A stretch of 64,000 bases of DNA, from assembly GCA_021776335.1 (NCBI GenBank), contig JAJFGB010000007.1:434001-498000 (forward strand), in the 5' to 3' direction. The notes under the pieces are model-generated. The model did not search any database, was not told where the DNA came from, and saw nothing but the letters and a program-made list of their open reading frames with translations. Positions 3,081 through 10,812 of this stretch are shown here, in pieces. Position numbers and translations under genes: made by a program. Each line of letters starts with the position of its first letter. The stretch's first letter is position 1. This stretch comes from Hyphococcus sp. Lineage in GTDB: Bacteria > Pseudomonadota > Alphaproteobacteria > Caulobacterales > Parvularculaceae.

Positions 3081-4325
3081 ATGATTACTGAACCCCTCAT
3101 TGTAATTGCACTTTGCATAGTTTTTTACGGCGCCTTTTCCGGGTGGCTGGCAAAAACGGTTATCTCGGCGCCGATGATTTTCATGCTGGCGGGCCTGGTC
3201 GCTGGCCAGGCCGGATTGGGCCTGTTTGAAATCTCCATCGAAAACGAAGTGCTGGAAGGGTTTGGTGAGTTAACGCTTGGATTCATCCTGTTTGCTGATG
3301 CGGCCGCCACCAACAGTCGCAAGCTTTTGAAAGAAAGTCGGATCCCGCAACGGCTGTTGCTCGTCTCTCTGCCGCTAACAATATTTTTTGGAACAGCCGT
3401 CGCGATCGGATTGTTTCCAAATCTTTCCTGGCAGGAATGTGCACTCATTGCAGCGATCCTTGCACCAACGGATGCAGCGCTTGGCTATGCGGTAGTGACC
3501 AGCAAAGATGTTCCGGAGCGCATTCGTCAGGGCATTCTTGTGGAATCCGGCTTAAATGACGGCCTGGCGCTGCCGGCGGTGCTGTTATTCGCCGCACTGG
3601 CGTTCAGCGCCATGTCCGAACAAGCGCACGGTCTCGGCTATTGGCTTGGCTTTGCTGCAAAACAAATAAGTATCGGTGCGATCGTCGGCATCATAACGGG
3701 CGGCGTTCTTGGCAAGCTCATTCATCACGCAGATGGAAAAGGCTGGATCAGTCATGATTTCCGCAACCTGACCTGTATTGGCGTGGCGATATTGACCCTG
3801 TTGCTCGCCGACCTTGTTGGCGGTAACGGATTTATAGCGGCCTTTGTTGGCGGGCTGGTGTTTGGCAGTTTTTGTCAACGGCGCGCGGGCTCTTTGACGA
3901 GTTTTGTTGAAGAAGAAGGCCAGCTTTTCAGTCTCATCATCTTTTTCTTCTTTGGCGCCGTCCTTTTGCCGGCCGCACTCGAACATTTCACGGGCTTTTG
4001 CGTTCTTTACGCACTTTCGAGCCTGACCGTTATCCGTATGGCGCCGACGGCAATTTCGTTGATCGGCCTTAATTTGAAACTGCCATCTCAATTATTCATG
4101 GGATGGTTCGGTCCCCGCGGACTTGCGTCGATTTTGTTCCTCCTGATTGCAGTAGAACATGATGATGTTGGGCGTTTGTCAGAAATTGAGGCGGTGGTTT
4201 ACGTCACGGTATTTTTAAGCGTCATTTTACATGGCGCTACGGCGTCGCCACTGTCACGGCTTTATGGCAAAAGCGCCGCTGCGAAAGCCGACAGCGTCGC
4301 TACCGCGGCGCCCAAAGCTGCTTAG
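3081..4325 (+). CDS. Cation:proton antiporter (CPA1/NhaP type)
   Basis: This is a polytopic membrane protein of 414 residues with about 11-12 hydrophobic segments. It carries the CPA1 hallmarks APTDAALG and ESGLNDGLALP, whose Asp residues take part in ion exchange. It should swap Na+ or K+ for protons across the inner membrane and so serve pH or salt homeostasis. The start ATG follows a 109-base gap after the glycosyltransferase, so it may have its own promoter. Its stop overlaps the stop of the convergent gene on the other strand by four bases. Ion specificity cannot be read from the sequence. Confidence 0.85.
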   Translation: MITEPLIVIALCIVFYGAFSGWLAKTVISAPMIFMLAGLVAGQAGLGLFEISIENEVLEGFGELTLGFILFADAAATNSRKLLKESRIPQRLLLVSLPLTIFFGTAVAIGLFPNLSWQECALIAAILAPTDAALGYAVVTSKDVPERIRQGILVESGLNDGLALPAVLLFAALAFSAMSEQAHGLGYWLGFAAKQISIGAIVGIITGGVLGKLIHHADGKGWISHDFRNLTCIGVAILTLLLADLVGGNGFIAAFVGGLVFGSFCQRRAGSLTSFVEEEGQLFSLIIFFFFGAVLLPAALEHFTGFCVLYALSSLTVIRMAPTAISLIGLNLKLPSQLFMGWFGPRGLASILFLLIAVEHDDVGRLSEIEAVVYVTVFLSVILHGATASPLSRLYGKSAAAKADSVATAAPKAA

Positions 4326-5125
4326 ATGCGTTGATAGTCGCCTGGATCGGCGCGGAACTGCAAGATATCGCCAACCCGGACGATCTCGCCTTGCGCAGTC
4401 ACTGGATCGGCGACGAGAGGCAGAATATCCATCGGCATCGGTCCCCCCTGTGCATCCGTCATCAGCAGCACTGATTCCCGTCCGTCACGTGTGCGCGCCC
4501 AGAAACTAGGCGGAATGCCGCCACGGATGCAAAGGCTTGCGCAGGCTTTATGAGTTTTGCCCAGGCTCGGCTTCATCACGCCAAAAAAGCACTTCGAGTC
4601 CATGATGGTTCCAGCGAGTTGCGCCTGGCCAAGGGACTCTGTTTCAGGCGCGCTTAGGGCTTGCGCATTTTCAACATTGGCGTCCAGAACTGAAAGCCAG
4701 TCGCCAAGGAAGAGCGGCACTTCAAGCATCTGCCGCTCTTTACGTTGAACAAGAACGCCGGATGCTTTCACAATCTGCCCTGTAACCTCACTGAGTGTCA
4801 GATCGGATGTACATTTTCCCTGGGCGACAACAAGAACCGTGCGCATGCCGAAAGGCGCCTTTGGATCCGCAAGCCGGATCATCGGATAGGGATGGTTTGC
4901 CAAAACACCCGTCACCTGATGCGTTGCATTGGTGAGCCAGGCGCCAGCGCCGGGGTCGTCAAGTTCGTTTGCGATCAGCCAGCTGGCGCCTGCGCTTGCC
5001 GCCAATCCGGCGGGCAGCGCCGCAAGCAGGAAACGCCTGTCGACGGACGGCGCTGGCGCCCAGCCGATAAACATCTCATCCGGATTTTTCTTTTGCGGAT
5101 CAATAATGCCGTTTGAAGCGGTCAT
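4322..5125 (-). CDS. Cysteine-motif protein with Tat-like signal, last gene of the Rieske operon
   Basis: This 267-residue protein is of unknown function. Residues about 26-52 hold a twin-arginine followed by a hydrophobic stretch (DRRFLLAALPAGLAASAG), suggesting Tat export or membrane anchoring after an unusually long cytoplasmic leader. The most conserved-looking block is DSKCFFGVMKP followed by KACASLCIRGGIPP, giving three cysteines spaced C-x13-C-x3-C that could bind metal, heme or a cluster. The ATG overlaps the stop of the Rieske-cytochrome gene (ATGA), so the two are translationally coupled. It may be a partner on the outer face of the membrane reductase; that is inference. Confidence 0.75.
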   Translation of the reverse strand: MTASNGIIDPQKKNPDEMFIGWAPAPSVDRRFLLAALPAGLAASAGASWLIANELDDPGAGAWLTNATHQVTGVLANHPYPMIRLADPKAPFGMRTVLVVAQGKCTSDLTLSEVTGQIVKASGVLVQRKERQMLEVPLFLGDWLSVLDANVENAQALSAPETESLGQAQLAGTIMDSKCFFGVMKPSLGKTHKACASLCIRGGIPPSFWARTRDGRESVLLMTDAQGGPMPMDILPLVADPVTAQGEIVRVGDILQFRADPGDYQRI

Positions 5126-6189
5126 CCCGATGGTGTTCCTTCCATGGATATGATCGCAGGGCTTGTCCGCGTTCCCGGTGGGTTAGGTTTTGGGTCAACG
5201 AAGACACGGTCGTTTTCTATTTTTACGTTGTAGGTAGCAATTTTTTCCGTAAAAGGCGGCGGCGATATGCCGTCATCAGGTCGATATTGCCAACCATGCC
5301 AGGGGCAGGTGATGCACCCGTCAATCACGCGTCCTTCTCCGAGGGGTCCGTTTTGATGACGACAGGCATTCGTCACCGCAGATATTTTATCGCCATAACG
5401 AAAGACTGCGACGCGATCGCCCTTGGGCAGCGGCGCGATGACGGCGCGCATATCGGGAATGTCCATCGGTGCACAAATATCGATCCAGCCCTTTGCTTTG
5501 AACAATTTCATGCCGTTATCGGCGCGCCATTCGCGAAGCCCGGCATAAAGATGCAGCCCGGACACCATGAGAAAGGCGCCGCCAGTCATAACTGGGTAGA
5601 GCATCGACTTTTCAGTCATCAACGCGCCGAGCACGATGTGCATCACAAGCAGCGCATAGGCGGGGTAAACCAGCATATGCAGCGCCTTCCAGACTGGCGC
5701 TGACAAATTGTTGAGCCAGAAATCATGACTTGTCGCCGCCATCACAAACAGAATGAGGAAAGCGACGAAACCCAGCGACTCAAATGGAAAGCCGGGAATG
5801 GAATCGTAAAGCGGATTGCTGATGAACAGGGAAACAAACGGGTTGAGTGGTCCACTTGAATGATACCACACAAGCGCCAGGCCGAAATGTGCTGATGCGA
5901 CGAGGAATGTCGTTACGCCGAGATGGCGCCGGTTATAGAGCACCGGCAACAAGCGCGGACTAAGACGCGCGAGCGGTCCGATGGCCAATATGATTGTCAG
6001 CATCGCGAATGCAGTGACGCCGAGTGCGCGAATAAGTAAAATGACAGGGTCGGCGACATGTCCGCTTGCCTGCGTCTGCAAGCCGATGGCCATAAAGACG
6101 GTGATGAAAACACCGACTGCCGCGACCGTGTAAAGATCATAGGCAATCTTGTTGCCGTTCCACTGGACCGCTTTGTATTGATGTCCCAT
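5122..6189 (-). CDS. Ferric-reductase-like membrane cytochrome fused to a Rieske [2Fe-2S] domain
   Basis: The first about 220 of 355 residues form six or so membrane helices of the ferric-reductase/MsrQ type. Histidines H101, H171 and H184 are candidate b-heme ligands, the last two with the typical 13-residue spacing. The C-terminal 120 residues are a Rieske domain with C276-x-H278 and C295-x2-H298, in CRHQNGPLGEG and CPWHGW. The protein can therefore move electrons between membrane heme and a [2Fe-2S] centre, probably linked to the quinone pool. The ATG overlaps the preceding stop by one base and the stop overlaps the next ATG. Direction of electron flow and partner are unknown. Confidence 0.85.
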   Translation of the reverse strand: MGHQYKAVQWNGNKIAYDLYTVAAVGVFITVFMAIGLQTQASGHVADPVILLIRALGVTAFAMLTIILAIGPLARLSPRLLPVLYNRRHLGVTTFLVASAHFGLALVWYHSSGPLNPFVSLFISNPLYDSIPGFPFESLGFVAFLILFVMAATSHDFWLNNLSAPVWKALHMLVYPAYALLVMHIVLGALMTEKSMLYPVMTGGAFLMVSGLHLYAGLREWRADNGMKLFKAKGWIDICAPMDIPDMRAVIAPLPKGDRVAVFRYGDKISAVTNACRHQNGPLGEGRVIDGCITCPWHGWQYRPDDGISPPPFTEKIATYNVKIENDRVFVDPKPNPPGTRTSPAIISMEGTPSG

Positions 6190-6362
6190 CAGTGCGCTTC
6201 CGATGCATCGCGCAACGTCTCAGAGACTGCCTCAACACCCGGCGGCAATTCCGTGAAGGGTGTTGCTGGGCGCATTTGCCAAAATACGAAGCCGACGACC
6301 GCAGTTATGGGCGCAATCAGCAGCCAAATAAGGAAATGAACCCTGCGATGCGGCCGTTTCAT
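6189..6362 (-). CDS. Small single-span membrane protein in the Rieske operon
   Basis: Translation from the ATG at 6362 gives 57 residues, MKRPHRRVHF onward, with one hydrophobic helix at about 9-30 (FLIWLLIAPITAVVGFVF) and an acidic tail of about 27 residues. The basic N-terminus suggests the tail lies in the periplasm. It overlaps both neighbours: its ATG overlaps the previous stop and its stop shares a base with the ATG of the Rieske-cytochrome gene, which strongly supports translation. It resembles the small accessory subunits found with membrane oxidoreductases. I do not recognise the family. Confidence 0.7.
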   Translation of the reverse strand: MKRPHRRVHFLIWLLIAPITAVVGFVFWQMRPATPFTELPPGVEAVSETLRDASEAH

Positions 6363-6604
6363 TTCGTTTCCTCAGTCGGCTGGTTTATTTTCTTTAGAGA
6401 AGCAAAACGCAAGATGATGAACGGCCATAAAGCGAGGCAGCCGAGAAAAATCATCGGCCGGAAAAAAGGGCTTGCGCCATTGGCGGCTTCGTCGATACGT
6501 GACACGCCAAAAGCGAGGAACAAAATGGCGACGATGGCGCCGATACCGAAATAAGCAGCAAGGAAAAATAGGAGCGTTTCGGTGATCGCTGTCACATCAG
6601 CCAT
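6359..6604 (-). CDS. Small two-helix membrane protein in the Rieske operon
   Basis: This protein has 81 residues from the ATG at 6604 (MADVTAITET); a longer start at 6631 would overlap the upstream gene by more and is less likely. It has two hydrophobic helices, about 8-32 and 52-68, and a basic C-terminus. It overlaps the Rieske-glutamate-synthase gene by eight bases and its stop overlaps the next ATG (ATGA). Together with the 57-residue neighbour it is probably an assembly or anchoring subunit for the Rieske redox proteins. No known family is recognised. Confidence 0.75.
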   Translation of the reverse strand: MADVTAITETLLFFLAAYFGIGAIVAILFLAFGVSRIDEAANGASPFFRPMIFLGCLALWPFIILRFASLKKINQPTEETK

Positions 6605-8222
6605 GGGATCCGCCCACGCCGCCGTAAGCAATGCCAGTCAGGGTCGCCATATCGGGTTTGAATGTCGTTAAATCGTCAGCAGTGAAATCGGCAAGTCGGT
6701 TATGACCGCAGGCGCGTGCGAGGATTTTCATCAGCTCTGTCGACGCGTCAAAGAAATTAGCAAGCTGTCGGGCTGATGCTTCTATTTTCAGGCGGGCGCG
6801 AAGGTTTTCTTTTTGTGTTGCGATGCCAACCGGGCAGTTATCGGTATGACAGGCGCGCATGCCGAGACAACCGATGGCTTGCATCGGCGCATTGGAAAGC
6901 GCGACAGCATCAGCACCGAGCGCCAGCGCTTTGGCGAAATCGGCGGGCTTGCGCAAACCGCCGGTTGCGATCAGCGAAACATTCCTCGCACCGCTCGCAT
7001 CAAGGTGCCGGCGTGCGCGCGCCAGCGCCGGGATTGTCGGCACAGAAATGTTATCCCGAAAAATCAGCGGCGCTGCGCCGGTGCCACCGCCGCGCCCATC
7101 AAGAATGATGTAATCAACGCCCAATTCCAGCGCGGCGTCGATATCCTTTTCGATGTGCTGCGCTGATAGTTTAAATCCGATAGGGATGCCGCCGGTGCGC
7201 TCGCGCACTTCGGTAGCGAAGTCGCGATATTGCGACACTTCCGTCCAGTCGGGAAAGCGCGCCGGTGAGATCGCGTCTTGACCCGGTTTGAGACCGCGCA
7301 CCTTGGCGATCTCATCTTTGACTTTCTTGCCCGGTAAATGGCCGCCGGTGCCGGTTTTCGCGCCTTGGCCGCCCTTGAAGTGAAATGCCGCAGATTCGCC
7401 TACCTTGTCCCACGAAAAGCCGAAACGGGCGGACGCCAGCTCATAGAAATAGCGGCTATTGGCGTGGCGCTCTTCATCAAGGGAACCGCCTTCACCGGCG
7501 CAGATGCCAGTACCGGCCATTTCCGCGCCTTTAGCGAGCGCGATTTTTGCTTCGCGTGAAAGGGCGCCAAAGCTCATGTCAGAAACAAACAGGGGAATTT
7601 TCAAGTGTAACGGTTTTCGGGCGCCGGGTCCGATCGTCACTCCCGTTTCAACCGGATCATCGTCAAGCAGCGGCACGCGATGAAGCTGCGCAGTCACAAA
7701 TTGAATATCGTCCCATGTGGGCACCTGGTCGCGCGGCACGCCCATGGCGTCTACGACACCATGGTGACCGGTTTTCGAAAGGCCGTCGCGGGCATAACCC
7801 TGGATCAGACCGACAAAAGGTTCCTCTGGCGCCGGATGCGTATCCGCATAAAGACCTTGATAGGCGTCGCGATTAAACGGTTGTGGATGATCAACCGCCC
7901 AGGCTTTCACTTCGTCTTTATCGACAAAGACTTTTCCGCCTTTTACTTGAGACGAAAATTTTTGAAGCGCTTCGCTGTTGTTATATTCGCTGACGCCCGT
8001 ATCGAGGCGGTAATCCCAATTGTGCACGCCGCAAATAAGGTTGTCTCCGTCAACATGACCATCGGCCAACAAGGCGCCGCGATGCAGGCACCGGCCATAT
8101 AAGACCGTGGCCTCTTTGCCGAAGCGCACAACAACAAGATCAACATCCGCAACCAGCGCATAGGCTGGTTTGCGGTCTTCAAGCTCCGCCCATTTGGCGA
8201 CGGCAACCCAGTTTCGCCCCAA
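6597..8222 (-). CDS. Rieske domain fused to FMN-binding glutamate-synthase domain
   Basis: The 541 residues begin with a Rieske domain (C45-x-H47 in CLHRG and C64-x2-H67 in ICGVHNW). From about 165 on they match the FMN-binding alpha-subunit domain of glutamate synthase, with GxGG-rich barrel loops and a Cx5Cx4C [3Fe-4S] motif at about 446-458 (CHTDNCPVG). The glutaminase domain of true GltB is absent. The enzyme is probably a flavin oxidoreductase fed by the Rieske centre, with an unknown substrate. The start is a TTG at 8222, supported by a GGGGAC ribosome site six bases upstream; no later start keeps the Rieske domain. It is the first gene of a five-gene overlapping operon. Confidence 0.88.
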   Translation of the reverse strand: MGRNWVAVAKWAELEDRKPAYALVADVDLVVVRFGKEATVLYGRCLHRGALLADGHVDGDNLICGVHNWDYRLDTGVSEYNNSEALQKFSSQVKGGKVFVDKDEVKAWAVDHPQPFNRDAYQGLYADTHPAPEEPFVGLIQGYARDGLSKTGHHGVVDAMGVPRDQVPTWDDIQFVTAQLHRVPLLDDDPVETGVTIGPGARKPLHLKIPLFVSDMSFGALSREAKIALAKGAEMAGTGICAGEGGSLDEERHANSRYFYELASARFGFSWDKVGESAAFHFKGGQGAKTGTGGHLPGKKVKDEIAKVRGLKPGQDAISPARFPDWTEVSQYRDFATEVRERTGGIPIGFKLSAQHIEKDIDAALELGVDYIILDGRGGGTGAAPLIFRDNISVPTIPALARARRHLDASGARNVSLIATGGLRKPADFAKALALGADAVALSNAPMQAIGCLGMRACHTDNCPVGIATQKENLRARLKIEASARQLANFFDASTELMKILARACGHNRLADFTADDLTTFKPDMATLTGIAYGGVGGSHG

Positions 8223-8439
8223 TTTTTGTCCCCTTACCCTGTCACTCGTTCCTATGGCCTAATCCACAGGTCGGAAAAGTGATTTGCGTGATTTTACTCA
8301 GCCCGCTCTAAACTGAAAAACACAAGTTCTAACATAGGCGTGATTGGGTAGCGTGATGAAATCACTTTTTTCAAGGCTGTTTGGCGGTAAGACAATCGCT
8401 CATAATAGCGGAAATCCTAATCTGACAGGGGAACCTAGC
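8223..8439. promoter_or_regulatory. Shared divergent promoter region of the Rieske cluster
   Basis: These 217 bases separate the two divergently transcribed Rieske-fusion genes and must hold both promoters. The stretch is AT-richer than the genes. A CCTATG/CATAGG pair about 80 bases apart is too short to call an operator. The ribosome site AGGGGA at 8427-8432 sits seven bases before the ATG at 8440. No clear -35/-10 pair could be fixed by eye. Confidence 0.5.
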
Positions 8440-10431
8440 ATGAATCATTCAGCTTCTAAGCGCGCTCTTGAATGGCATCGCGTAGCGAGCGCCGATCAGG
8501 CGCCGGAAGGCCGCGTGATCACGGTGACCGCGGGTCGGAAGACGCTGGCTCTGGTCCATTTCAACGGCCAATACGCAGCCATGGATAATCGTTGCCCCCA
8601 TCAAGGCGGGCCATTGGGCGAAGGGTCCATTGAAAAGGACGCTGACGGCGAATGCTGGCTGCGCTGCCCGTGGCATGGCTGGGATTTTGACCCGCTCACC
8701 GGCAAGCCGCCAGGCGGGCACGAGGATTCCGGTCAGGAGATGTTTCCGGTCGAGACCCGCAGCGATGGTATATATGTGGGCGTACCGGCGGAACCGGCGC
8801 ATGTTCGGACCGCTACAGATGTGGTTGCCGAGACCATGGTCAATTGGGGCCTGAAACGCGTTTTTGGCATGGTTGGCCATTCCAATCTCGGGCTCGCTGA
8901 TGCGTTTCGCCTGCAGGAAGAGGCGGGAAAGATTTCATATATTGGCATCCGCCATGAGGGCGCCGCATCTTTTGCCTGCTCTGGATATGCAAAACTGACC
9001 GGAAAGCCGGCAGCATGTCTGTCGATTGCCGGACCCGGCGCGACCAATATGATGACCGGTCTTTGGGATGCAAAAGTTGACCGCGCGCCAGTGGTCGCCT
9101 GCGCCGGCCAGGTTCAGGTGCAGGTATTTTCTCCCTTCGCGTTTCAAGATATTGACCTTCACGGCGCCTTTGCGCCGGTGGCGAAATTCAATCAGCTTGT
9201 TCTGCATGCGTCTGATTATGGCAATGTGGCGTCTCTGGCGATGAAGTCCGCACTGATTGAGCGCGATGTTTCTGTATTGATTTTTCCCGACGACGCCCAA
9301 ACCCTGCCGGCGCCGGATGCGAAAGCCGGCGGACCGGAGGGGCGGATCGTTGGTCCCCGCATGGCGCCGCCGGATGATGTGATCGAAGCGGCGGTAAAAA
9401 AAATACATGGCGCCAAACGTCCGGTGATCATTGTCGGTTATGGCGCGCGCGAGTCGATGTCAGAGGTGAACGCTTTGGCCGAGGATCTGAAATGTCCGGT
9501 GCTCACAACTTTTAAAGCGAAAGGGCAAATCCCGGATACGCACCCCCATGCCGGCGGCGTGCTGGGGCGGTCAGGAACGCCTATCGCATCATGGTTCATG
9601 AATGAGTGTGATCTGATTATCGCGATCGGCGCATCGTTTTCCCATCATACCGGCATCGAACCCTCGAAGCCGATTGTGCAGATCGACTTTGACCGTATGC
9701 ATCTCGGCAAAAACCATGCTGTGGCGTTGCCGGTCTGGGGTGAGATTGGTGAAACCCTGCGTTTGATGAAAAACGCACATCCGTCGCATAGCGCTGGCAT
9801 TGATCAAACGAAGGAGATTGCAGAGCGCTGGGCGATTTGGCGACGTGAAAAGACCCGTCGCCTTGACGACAATCGCGGCAATGGCATCAACGCGGCCTCA
9901 CTTTTCGCCGCGATGACGAAAGTCGTGCCGGGCGACGCGATCATGCCGGTGGATGTCGGTAACAACACTTATTCTTTTGGCCGGTATTTTGAACCATGCG
10001 GCCAACGGGTTTTGATGTCCGGCTATCTCGGGTCGATCGGATTTGGTTTCCCAGCGGCCATGGGCGCCTGGGCGGCGACGCAGGATTTTGAGGAATATCG
10101 CGGCCGAAAAGTCGTTTCTATTTCCGGTGATGGCGGCTTTGGTCAGTACGCCATGGAATTTACGACGGCTGTAAAATATGACATGGATATCACCCATGTG
10201 CTGATGAATAACGGCCAGCTGGGAAAGATCACCAAGGAGCAGAGAGCGGGCGAGTGGCCTGTTTGGCAGACATCCCTGAGCAATCCGAGTTTTGCGGATT
10301 TTGCAAATTCCTGCGGCGGTAAGGGTGTTCGCGTAACAGACAAAGCCGACCTTGAAGAGGTCATTCGAACGGCGATTGCCCATAAAGGGCCGGTGCTCGT
10401 TGAAGTGATGACCGATGCGGAACTCGTCTAG
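8440..10431 (+). CDS. Rieske domain fused to thiamine-diphosphate (acetolactate-synthase-like) enzyme
   Basis: Residues 1-110 of 663 form a Rieske domain (C52-x-H54 in RCPHQGG, C76-x2-H79 in CPWHGW). The rest has the three-domain layout of acetolactate synthase/benzoylformate decarboxylase-type enzymes: the catalytic glutamate in RHEGAA at 173, IAGPGATNM, and the cofactor motif GDGG at about 563 ending in NN near 590. An iron-sulfur cluster joined to a ThDP site suggests oxidative decarboxylation or carboligation with electron transfer. The ATG at 8440 is chosen for its AGGGGA site; an in-frame ATG at 8356 would add 28 residues but lacks a good site. It is divergent from the Rieske-GltS operon. 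Substrate unknown. Confidence 0.87.
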   Translation: MNHSASKRALEWHRVASADQAPEGRVITVTAGRKTLALVHFNGQYAAMDNRCPHQGGPLGEGSIEKDADGECWLRCPWHGWDFDPLTGKPPGGHEDSGQEMFPVETRSDGIYVGVPAEPAHVRTATDVVAETMVNWGLKRVFGMVGHSNLGLADAFRLQEEAGKISYIGIRHEGAASFACSGYAKLTGKPAACLSIAGPGATNMMTGLWDAKVDRAPVVACAGQVQVQVFSPFAFQDIDLHGAFAPVAKFNQLVLHASDYGNVASLAMKSALIERDVSVLIFPDDAQTLPAPDAKAGGPEGRIVGPRMAPPDDVIEAAVKKIHGAKRPVIIVGYGARESMSEVNALAEDLKCPVLTTFKAKGQIPDTHPHAGGVLGRSGTPIASWFMNECDLIIAIGASFSHHTGIEPSKPIVQIDFDRMHLGKNHAVALPVWGEIGETLRLMKNAHPSHSAGIDQTKEIAERWAIWRREKTRRLDDNRGNGINAASLFAAMTKVVPGDAIMPVDVGNNTYSFGRYFEPCGQRVLMSGYLGSIGFGFPAAMGAWAATQDFEEYRGRKVVSISGDGGFGQYAMEFTTAVKYDMDITHVLMNNGQLGKITKEQRAGEWPVWQTSLSNPSFADFANSCGGKGVRVTDKADLEEVIRTAIAHKGPVLVEVMTDAELV

Positions 10432-10444
10432 CGTTGAGTATCAG

Positions 10445-10464
10445 GCTGCTTAATTTCAAGCAGC
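10445..10464. terminator. Candidate terminator hairpin between convergent genes
   Basis: GCTGCTT and AAGCAGC form a perfect seven-base stem around a six-base loop (AATTTC). It lies 14 bases after the ThDP-enzyme stop and overlaps the last codons of the convergent HPt gene. There is no clean T run on the plus strand, so termination is only possible. Confidence 0.35.
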
Positions 10465-10812
10465 GCGCTCTTCATTCATGGCAGCGGTGCAGAACTTTAT
10501 AAGGCTATCCGTTAGCGCCAAAAAACCGTCATCACTCCTGGGATCGTTTCCAATGATCAAACGTTCCAATGTCCCTGCGGTCTCAGTGAGTTCCGGATAA
10601 AGATAGGATGCGGCCGTACCGCGCAGCGCATGCACCGTGGGCCGCATCGCCTGCCGCGATTCGGCATCGATCTCATTGGCGGCGATTTGTTCCCGGTGAC
10701 TTTTCAGCTCGTTGAGCTGGGTTTCCAGAGAGGAAAAAAAACTTGGTTTCACGCCTTCTATACAGTTATCTGCTGGTACGTCCGGCTGTCGAGAATTTGA
10801 TGTTCGAGGCAT
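10456..10812 (-). CDS. HPt-domain histidine phosphotransfer protein
   Basis: This 118-residue cytoplasmic protein has the HPt signature HALRGTAASY, where the histidine (about residue 61) accepts phosphate in multistep phosphorelays. The helices before and after are amphipathic, as expected for the four-helix bundle. No kinase or regulator gene adjoins it, so it is an orphan; the hybrid kinase at 40851-42683 has no HPt domain of its own and is one conceivable partner, but that is speculation. It lies convergent to the Rieske-ThDP gene and upstream of neither redox gene. Confidence 0.75.
   Translation of the reverse strand: MPRTSNSRQPDVPADNCIEGVKPSFFSSLETQLNELKSHREQIAANEIDAESRQAMRPTVHALRGTAASYLYPELTETAGTLERLIIGNDPRSDDGFLALTDSLIKFCTAAMNEERAA

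Follow-up and report, generated by a model that had tools for sequence, protein, structure and literature searches.

The closest described relatives of the system considered here are the MsrQ-like proteins, which possess six helices and two heme sites, act in transmembrane electron-transfer systems (PMC8238504), and are combined there with varied partners (PMC8238504, PMC5676040). A Rieske domain has already been listed as a partner of the ferric reductase domain (PMC3591440). On the enzyme side, the fusion of CDGSH motifs to glutamate synthase is the type 5 CISD (PMC3174974), and CDGSH has been described in combination with Fer4_19, Glu_synthase and Rieske_2 domains (PMC5859297); all statements citing these papers refer to the portions of them consulted here. 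The present locus is a cluster of seven genes at positions 3081-10431 of a stretch of 64,000 nucleotides from Hyphococcus sp. (the window, meaning this whole stretch), in which Rieske domains are fused to an MsrQ-type cytochrome b (FR), to a glutamate-synthase-type FMN/[3Fe-4S] enzyme (GltS-Rieske) and to a thiamine-diphosphate enzyme (ThDP-Rieske). The chances are about even that the cluster exports electrons across the membrane as an MsrQ-like system in which Rieske domains act as connectors. Its genes, as delimited by open reading frame calls and Pfam, are the following.

8344-10431, plus strand: ThDP-Rieske, 695 aa from TTG, Rieske domain (aa 43-122) and three TPP_enzyme domains (Pfam, PDB sequence matches, alignment)
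6597-8222, minus strand: GltS-Rieske, 541 aa, TTG start, Rieske domain (aa 4-85) and Glu_synthase FMN/[3Fe-4S] domain (Pfam, motifs)
6359-6631, minus strand: small membrane protein (90 aa) belonging to the cytochrome module (open reading frame, start uncertain; no Pfam match)
6189-6362, minus strand: 57-aa protein, apparently with a single membrane helix (open reading frame)
5122-6189, minus strand: FR, ferric-reductase-like (MsrQ-type) cytochrome b, 355 aa, with a C-terminal Rieske domain (aa 235-320) (Pfam, alignment, model, fold search, PDB profile)
4322-5125, minus strand: P267, 267-aa protein, membrane-anchored at the N-terminus, with two predicted OB folds (alignments, model, fold search)
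3081-4325, plus strand, convergent: PF00999 Na+/H+ (CPA-type) antiporter (Pfam, neighbourhood count)

All three Rieske fusions score above the Pfam gathering cut-offs and carry the ligands C-x-H and C-x2-H, as a preliminary description of this DNA had stated; its gene arrangement is likewise borne out, as overlaps of 1 to 35 bases join the five genes on the minus strand and the ThDP-Rieske gene diverges from them across a gap of 121 bases. Its further claim, that no described pathway holds this set, agrees with the open-licence PMC papers searched, in which literature on Rieske domains with glutamate synthase, ThDP, pyruvate oxidase, CDGSH or MsrQ does not describe these fusions as a system. 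The genome itself (4.18 Mb) contains nine Rieske matches, three of them inside the cluster. In a tree of Rieske domains the three fusions form three separate clades with bootstrap values of 93, 99 and 99; 114 of 170 domains were entered, after 6 false regex matches had been dropped from 176, and these supports are rough, as the columns are few and the bootstrap has not settled. A recent tandem duplication of one Rieske domain, considered as the origin of the three, is rejected on account of the separate clades. As each fusion has many relatives and occupies one clade, it is neither a product of chance nor a frameshift artefact.

FR combines the Pfam domains Rieske and Ferric_reduct in a six-helix cytochrome, and its model (pLDDT 88.5) displays long membrane helices followed by a Rieske domain of the dioxygenase-ferredoxin type. 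Across 54 aligned cytochromes (alignment A2, with 53 of 80 relatives taken, the omitted ones being mostly close kin), H89, H101, H155, H171, H184 and H213 are invariant outside the Rieske domain, as are the Rieske ligands C276, H278, C295 and H298 within it. The 50 fold-search matches viewed, of 290, are all of the Rieske fold and do not inform the membrane part. By the positive-inside rule, the Rieske domain of FR is probably cytosolic. From the 99 relatives of FR that a scan of named genomes returned, the best 80 loci were taken further. Their record titles place them in Alphaproteobacteria, Acidobacteria, Planctomycetes, Bacteroidetes-type groups, Balneolaceae and Opitutaceae, and identity reaches 87% in Marinicaulis bins and other Parvularculaceae. 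Relatives of the 90-aa membrane protein stand upstream of the cytochrome in many of these 80 loci, and those of the 57-aa protein are found mainly in close kin. One of the contigs (L059), labelled Nitrosomonas, carries a Parvularculaceae-type cluster and is probably a binning error.

The regular neighbour of the cytochrome, which the preliminary description did not mention, is P267. It lies downstream of FR in 75 of the 80 named loci (tblastn). In a class sample of 289 genomes, where the cytochrome was counted if its match scores above 300 bits and covers the greater part of the query, full-length FR occurs in 15 genomes (170 have any match) and full-length P267 in 14, every P267 match lying at most about 60 bases from that of FR. 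P267 without FR was never seen in these genomes; FR without P267 is occasional. FR and P267 are thus a near-constant pair, a module that extends over several phyla and is far wider than the other fusions.

The model of P267 (pLDDT 89.4) consists of an N-terminal membrane anchor and two OB folds. D176, C179, H192, C195 and C199 are invariant in the alignments (alignment A1, with 67 of the 73 available relatives, those omitted being mostly close kin), which gives a site of three Cys and one His, accompanied by an Asp. The window protein has no Pfam match and no sequence relative in the PDB at E values up to 1; 6 of 68 family members match DUF5818 weakly (best E 0.0008), a term absent from the open-licence PMC papers searched. 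An assignment of function from the fold was abandoned, as only generic OB folds (SSB, RPA, LysRS) were returned, with a best E of 9e-5 and a TM score of about 0.2. Single-domain relatives of the C-terminal OB domain are found at nine loci (L190-L198). Five such shorter proteins keep the invariant D, C, H and C-x3-C in an alignment of 11 sequences; a second small Cys-bearing protein is adjacent in 9/9 loci, and SCO1/SenC in 6/9, four of these being Pfam-confirmed, which hints at a link to copper. P267 may serve as a periplasmic acceptor in which the 3-Cys/1-His site binds a metal or works as a set of redox thiols.

The fusions co-occur well beyond the window. In the class sample GltS-Rieske is present in 8 and ThDP-Rieske in 13 of the 289 genomes, and all three fusions are found together in 7 genomes of five families (G000, G009, G096, G123, G143, G227 and G252). 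They are clustered in three of these (G000, G096, G252) and apart in the other four, by about 17 kb or more in G009 and G143 and on different contigs in G123 and G227; since these four still hold the complete set, the association reaches beyond neighbourhood. The matched stretch contains one inner stop in the FR of G154 and in the GltS-Rieske of G227, G123 and G009, although in the latter two the frame is open across nearly the whole protein. Hypergeometric p values, which ignore kinship, are 1.6e-9 for cytochrome with GltS-Rieske, 3e-7 for cytochrome with ThDP-Rieske and 4e-10 for the two enzymes, so that an overlap by chance is very unlikely in this sample, although its genomes are related. 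Thirteen of the 80 named loci contain all three fusions, twelve being Parvularculaceae-like and one from a member of the Bacteroidia (L120, Bacteroidota). When 50 FR-bearing genomes were selected from the named loci, mostly outside Parvularculaceae, GltS-Rieske was found anywhere in 11 and ThDP-Rieske in 3, all 3 falling among the 11 (p 0.008). The two enzymes are therefore add-ons to the FR-P267 module. Of the preliminary view of a linked system, the co-occurrence across families and two phyla holds, but one fixed pathway does not, as FR with P267 is a separate and wider unit. That description had also proposed a search for genomes with all three fusions and had named their scattering as an outcome that would speak against it; such genomes exist, and in four of the seven the genes lie apart.

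A replacement of the iron-sulfur domain on the same enzymes adds to this picture. The GltS core carries two CDGSH motifs in place of the Rieske domain in G022 (Pfam) and in G202, G287 and G211 (motif). Rieske-bearing GltS is accompanied by the cytochrome in 7/8 genomes and CDGSH-bearing GltS in 0/4 (p 0.010; class sample). Similarly, five ThDP-Rieske proteins (G001, G084, G130, G184, G232) have two extra N-terminal CDGSH motifs ahead of the Rieske domain, four of the five also with a Fer4_19-like motif (by Pfam in G001 and G130); the Rieske-only form occurs with the cytochrome in 7/8 genomes, the CDGSH-bearing form in 0/5 (p 0.005; same sample). Counted by family, p is 0.048 for each enzyme, with family f25 on both sides for GltS. 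Within this small sample, the computation shows that the type of iron-sulfur domain tracks the presence of the cytochrome. The consulted portions of PMC3174974 and PMC5859297 do not mention CDGSH forms linked to a cytochrome. The loci of the CDGSH-bearing ThDP-Rieske proteins (L150-L153, L155) encode a multi-cluster pyruvate-oxidase-like fusion.

The residues of ThDP-Rieske are informative regarding its reaction. Its Rieske ligands, the activating Glu and the Phe-Gln pair are kept in all 29 rows of the alignment (the window protein being present twice among them), and the Glu of the pyruvate oxidase (POX) type, which we take to occupy the position of LpPOX E483, is kept in the 28 rows that cover it. 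The Arg of GARFDDR and a Trp of the C-terminal domain, which are presumably signatures of acetohydroxyacid synthase (AHAS), are replaced in the covering rows (29 and 28, respectively), the window protein reading GASFSHH and KITKEQ. A separate AHAS-like protein of the same genome (L173) keeps both. The residues thus fit a pyruvate oxidase rather than an acetolactate synthase, and are consistent with oxidative decarboxylation; of the decarboxylation or amination route envisaged earlier, the former gains support in this way, while amination has none that is direct. With ThDP-FAD pyruvate oxidase (PoxB), the enzyme has in common the three ThDP domains, the activating Glu, the Phe-Gln pair and the POX-type Glu. 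It differs in its N-terminal Rieske domain, through which electrons probably leave instead of going to O2 or directly to quinone, and in a possible amphipathic stretch that is N-terminal here and C-terminal in PoxB. The sequence MKSLFSRLFGGK lies near the N-terminus of ThDP-Rieske and, judged by eye, has look-alikes in several relatives; an alternative ATG near 8440 may be the real start.

GltS-Rieske retains the FMN domain and the [3Fe-4S] cysteines (C-x5-C-x4-C) that it shares with ferredoxin- or NADPH-dependent glutamate synthase. In contrast to that enzyme it has neither the class II glutaminase nor the GXGXG domain by Pfam, and the loop KPGEGGQLPG is changed to KTGTGGHLPG. The latter motif is also present in the type 5 CISD, whose synthase core is 65-66% identical to that of GltS-Rieske; the difference lies in the N-terminal 2Fe-2S module, which is tandem CDGSH there and Rieske here. 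A separate GltB-like protein (open frame of 1508 aa) is encoded in the same genome. A third Glu_synthase-type protein (L172, own contig C5, 221369; open frame of 545 aa), which seems to have a membrane helix at its N-terminus, has neither Rieske nor CDGSH in its sequence.

An alternative Rieske-tagged partner of the cytochrome indicates a possible source of electrons. A fusion of Rieske with an FMN reductase of the NADPH-dependent type is located downstream of FR in L051 (6257-7384) and L126 (10821-12149) and after P267 in L127 (2761-3888); it was assigned by Pfam in L051 and L127 and by 63% identity in L126. Its position beside FR points to a cytosolic reductant as the donor.

From the computed domains, ligands, linkage, co-occurrence beyond linkage and P267-cytochrome pairing, we infer a direction of flow, substrates, membrane sides, a cofactor and acceptor chemistry for P267 and a role for the antiporter. 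ThDP-Rieske would decarboxylate pyruvate or another 2-oxoacid oxidatively in the cytosol, and the FMN/[3Fe-4S] enzyme may oxidise an amino-acid-like substrate or interconvert electrons at its flavin. Each enzyme would pass single electrons to its own fused [2Fe-2S] centre, which would dock on, or swap electrons with, the C-terminal Rieske domain of FR on the cytosolic side; the b hemes of FR would then carry them across the membrane to P267, with the antiporter possibly offsetting the protons that remain inside as electrons exit. The preliminary description had drawn the chain from quinone or heme towards the enzymes; the opposite course, from enzymes to heme and outwards, appears more likely. 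Such an export system would share with MsrPQ and MsrQ-like systems (PF01794) the six-helix ferric-reductase-domain cytochrome b, its conserved histidines and an anchored or exported partner. It departs from them in the fused Rieske domain, where others use free Fre, quinone or an NAD-binding domain, and in the partner, the double OB-fold P267 standing in place of a Mo enzyme or flavinylated domain. MsrP, the periplasmic molybdopterin enzyme, is not the adjacent partner, that place being held by P267 with its two OB folds and no Pfam match.

A broader form of the export reading is put forward tentatively, as a possibility somewhat less probable than the export system itself. Unrelated cytosolic carbon and nitrogen enzymes (of pyruvate-oxidase, glutamate-synthase and NADPH-FMN reductase types) may each have acquired, independently, a Rieske "iron-sulfur plug" that fits one Rieske cytochrome b, so that an export bus leads to periplasmic OB-fold acceptors of a new class, which may be linked to copper, with CDGSH plugs on the same enzymes in lineages without the bus. 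If the export reading is right, pyruvate and amino-acid-type oxidations would feed a transmembrane heme conduit directly, without NADH or quinone, the iron-sulfur connector would be interchangeable between enzymes, and the uncharacterised families P267, Rieske-GltS, type 5 CISD, Rieske-ThDP and Rieske-FMN reductase would receive roles together.

Several observations weigh against the export system. P267 was not detected in 5 of the 80 named loci, one of which is at a contig end, nor in G216, the fifteenth FR genome of the class sample, where a Rieske/FMN-reductase fusion takes its place; G324 (L117) and G336 (L130) carry FR and GltS-Rieske with no P267 adjoining that FR; and a second FR copy of the Hyphococcus genome has no P267 beside it. 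Among the 50 FR genomes, 39 lack GltS-Rieske and 47 lack ThDP-Rieske at the thresholds used. The iron-sulfur replacement is seen in small samples in which kin cannot count as independent, and each enzyme has a discordant case without the cytochrome, namely a Rieske-only ThDP enzyme in G003 and a Rieske-GltS in G074 (67% complete). The three Rieske domains are not close kin, which gives no support to a shared docking surface, and the Rieske/FMN-reductase fusion is also found in G114 (L026), which has no full-length cytochrome. Finally, the antiporter goes with the two enzyme genes rather than with the cytochrome, and was not seen in 7 of 8 loci that have FR and GltS-Rieske but no ThDP-Rieske.

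Among the alternatives, a flow in the reverse direction survives best, although it is unlikely. A quinol or periplasmic reductant would feed the cytochrome and, through its Rieske domain, GltS-Rieske (and ThDP-Rieske), where the electrons would power a cytosolic reduction such as reductive amination. Glutamate synthase normally consumes electrons, its FMN domain and 3Fe-4S cysteines are retained here, and MsrQ is termed a quinone-binding subunit (PMC8238504). However, enzymes of the pyruvate-oxidase type release electrons, L051, L126 and L127 have as their alternative partner a fusion to an FMN reductase of the NADPH type, the genome already possesses the separate GltB-like protein, and an anchored partner of the cytochrome is nearly always present.

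Slightly less probable still, the Rieske and CDGSH domains may be redox sensors or structural switches on the two enzymes, with the cytochrome as a separate module in the same regulon. The occurrence of the same enzymes with different 2Fe-2S domains and the distance between the Rieske lineages agree with this. Nevertheless, in the small sample at hand the replacement correlates with whether a genome has the cytochrome, a match that a general sensor would not need, and the Rieske ligands are invariant along with the catalytic motifs.

A biosynthetic cluster, in which ThDP-Rieske would serve branched-chain amino acid synthesis as an unusual acetolactate synthase, is improbable. The protein is homologous to AHAS, and its gene adjoins an apparent ilvD in G130 and G232 (as read from the sequence start, with no family search); but the presumed AHAS Arg and Trp are replaced, and both are present in the separate AHAS-like protein. 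The weakest alternative, a mobile metabolic island of three functionally unlinked redox genes, has a gene order that differs between lineages and the dispersal of the genes in four of the seven class genomes in its favour, and is about as improbable; those four still carry all three fusions, and the full set stands together in the Bacteroidota genome L120.

The convergent antiporter, also absent from the preliminary description, matches PF00999 with 139.5 bits against a cut-off of 26.2 and recurs nearby. Of the 15 loci that carry all three fusions, 12 have an antiporter at most about 7.5 kb from the enzyme genes, 10 of the 12 being close kin. Among five loci without FR, three have one immediately upstream of GltS-Rieske; where FR stands alone, one is nearby in 4 of 70, and three of these four are on cut contigs. 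Four queries were used for these counts, three being antiporters first met in L050, L120 and L162, so that those loci match by construction. A charge-balancing role, as with NOX and NHE, would suit it in the export scheme.

The second FR-Rieske copy of the genome (L039, own contig C9, 7603-10158) is followed by DUF4142 and then a cupredoxin gene in place of P267, on a contig with conjugation-like genes (a reading, with no family search). A DUF5996-like protein is found near GltS, ThDP or P267 in L154 (10364-11107), L162 (7046-7894), L163, L114 (11849-12640), L116 and L118, the grouping being partly by eye, with one protein below the Pfam cut-off and two others without a match; as the genome's own copy is on contig C6, it was left outside the proposed system. 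On own contig C8, L007 (375329) and L008 (430961) are two further proteins with C-terminal Rieske domains, one of which apparently sits on a phytanoyl-CoA-dioxygenase-like protein, as read from the sequence; a protein of the L008 type recurs close to the cluster in L054. In the window, an Hpt-domain phosphotransfer protein (10456-10812, minus strand; Pfam) converges on the ThDP-Rieske gene.

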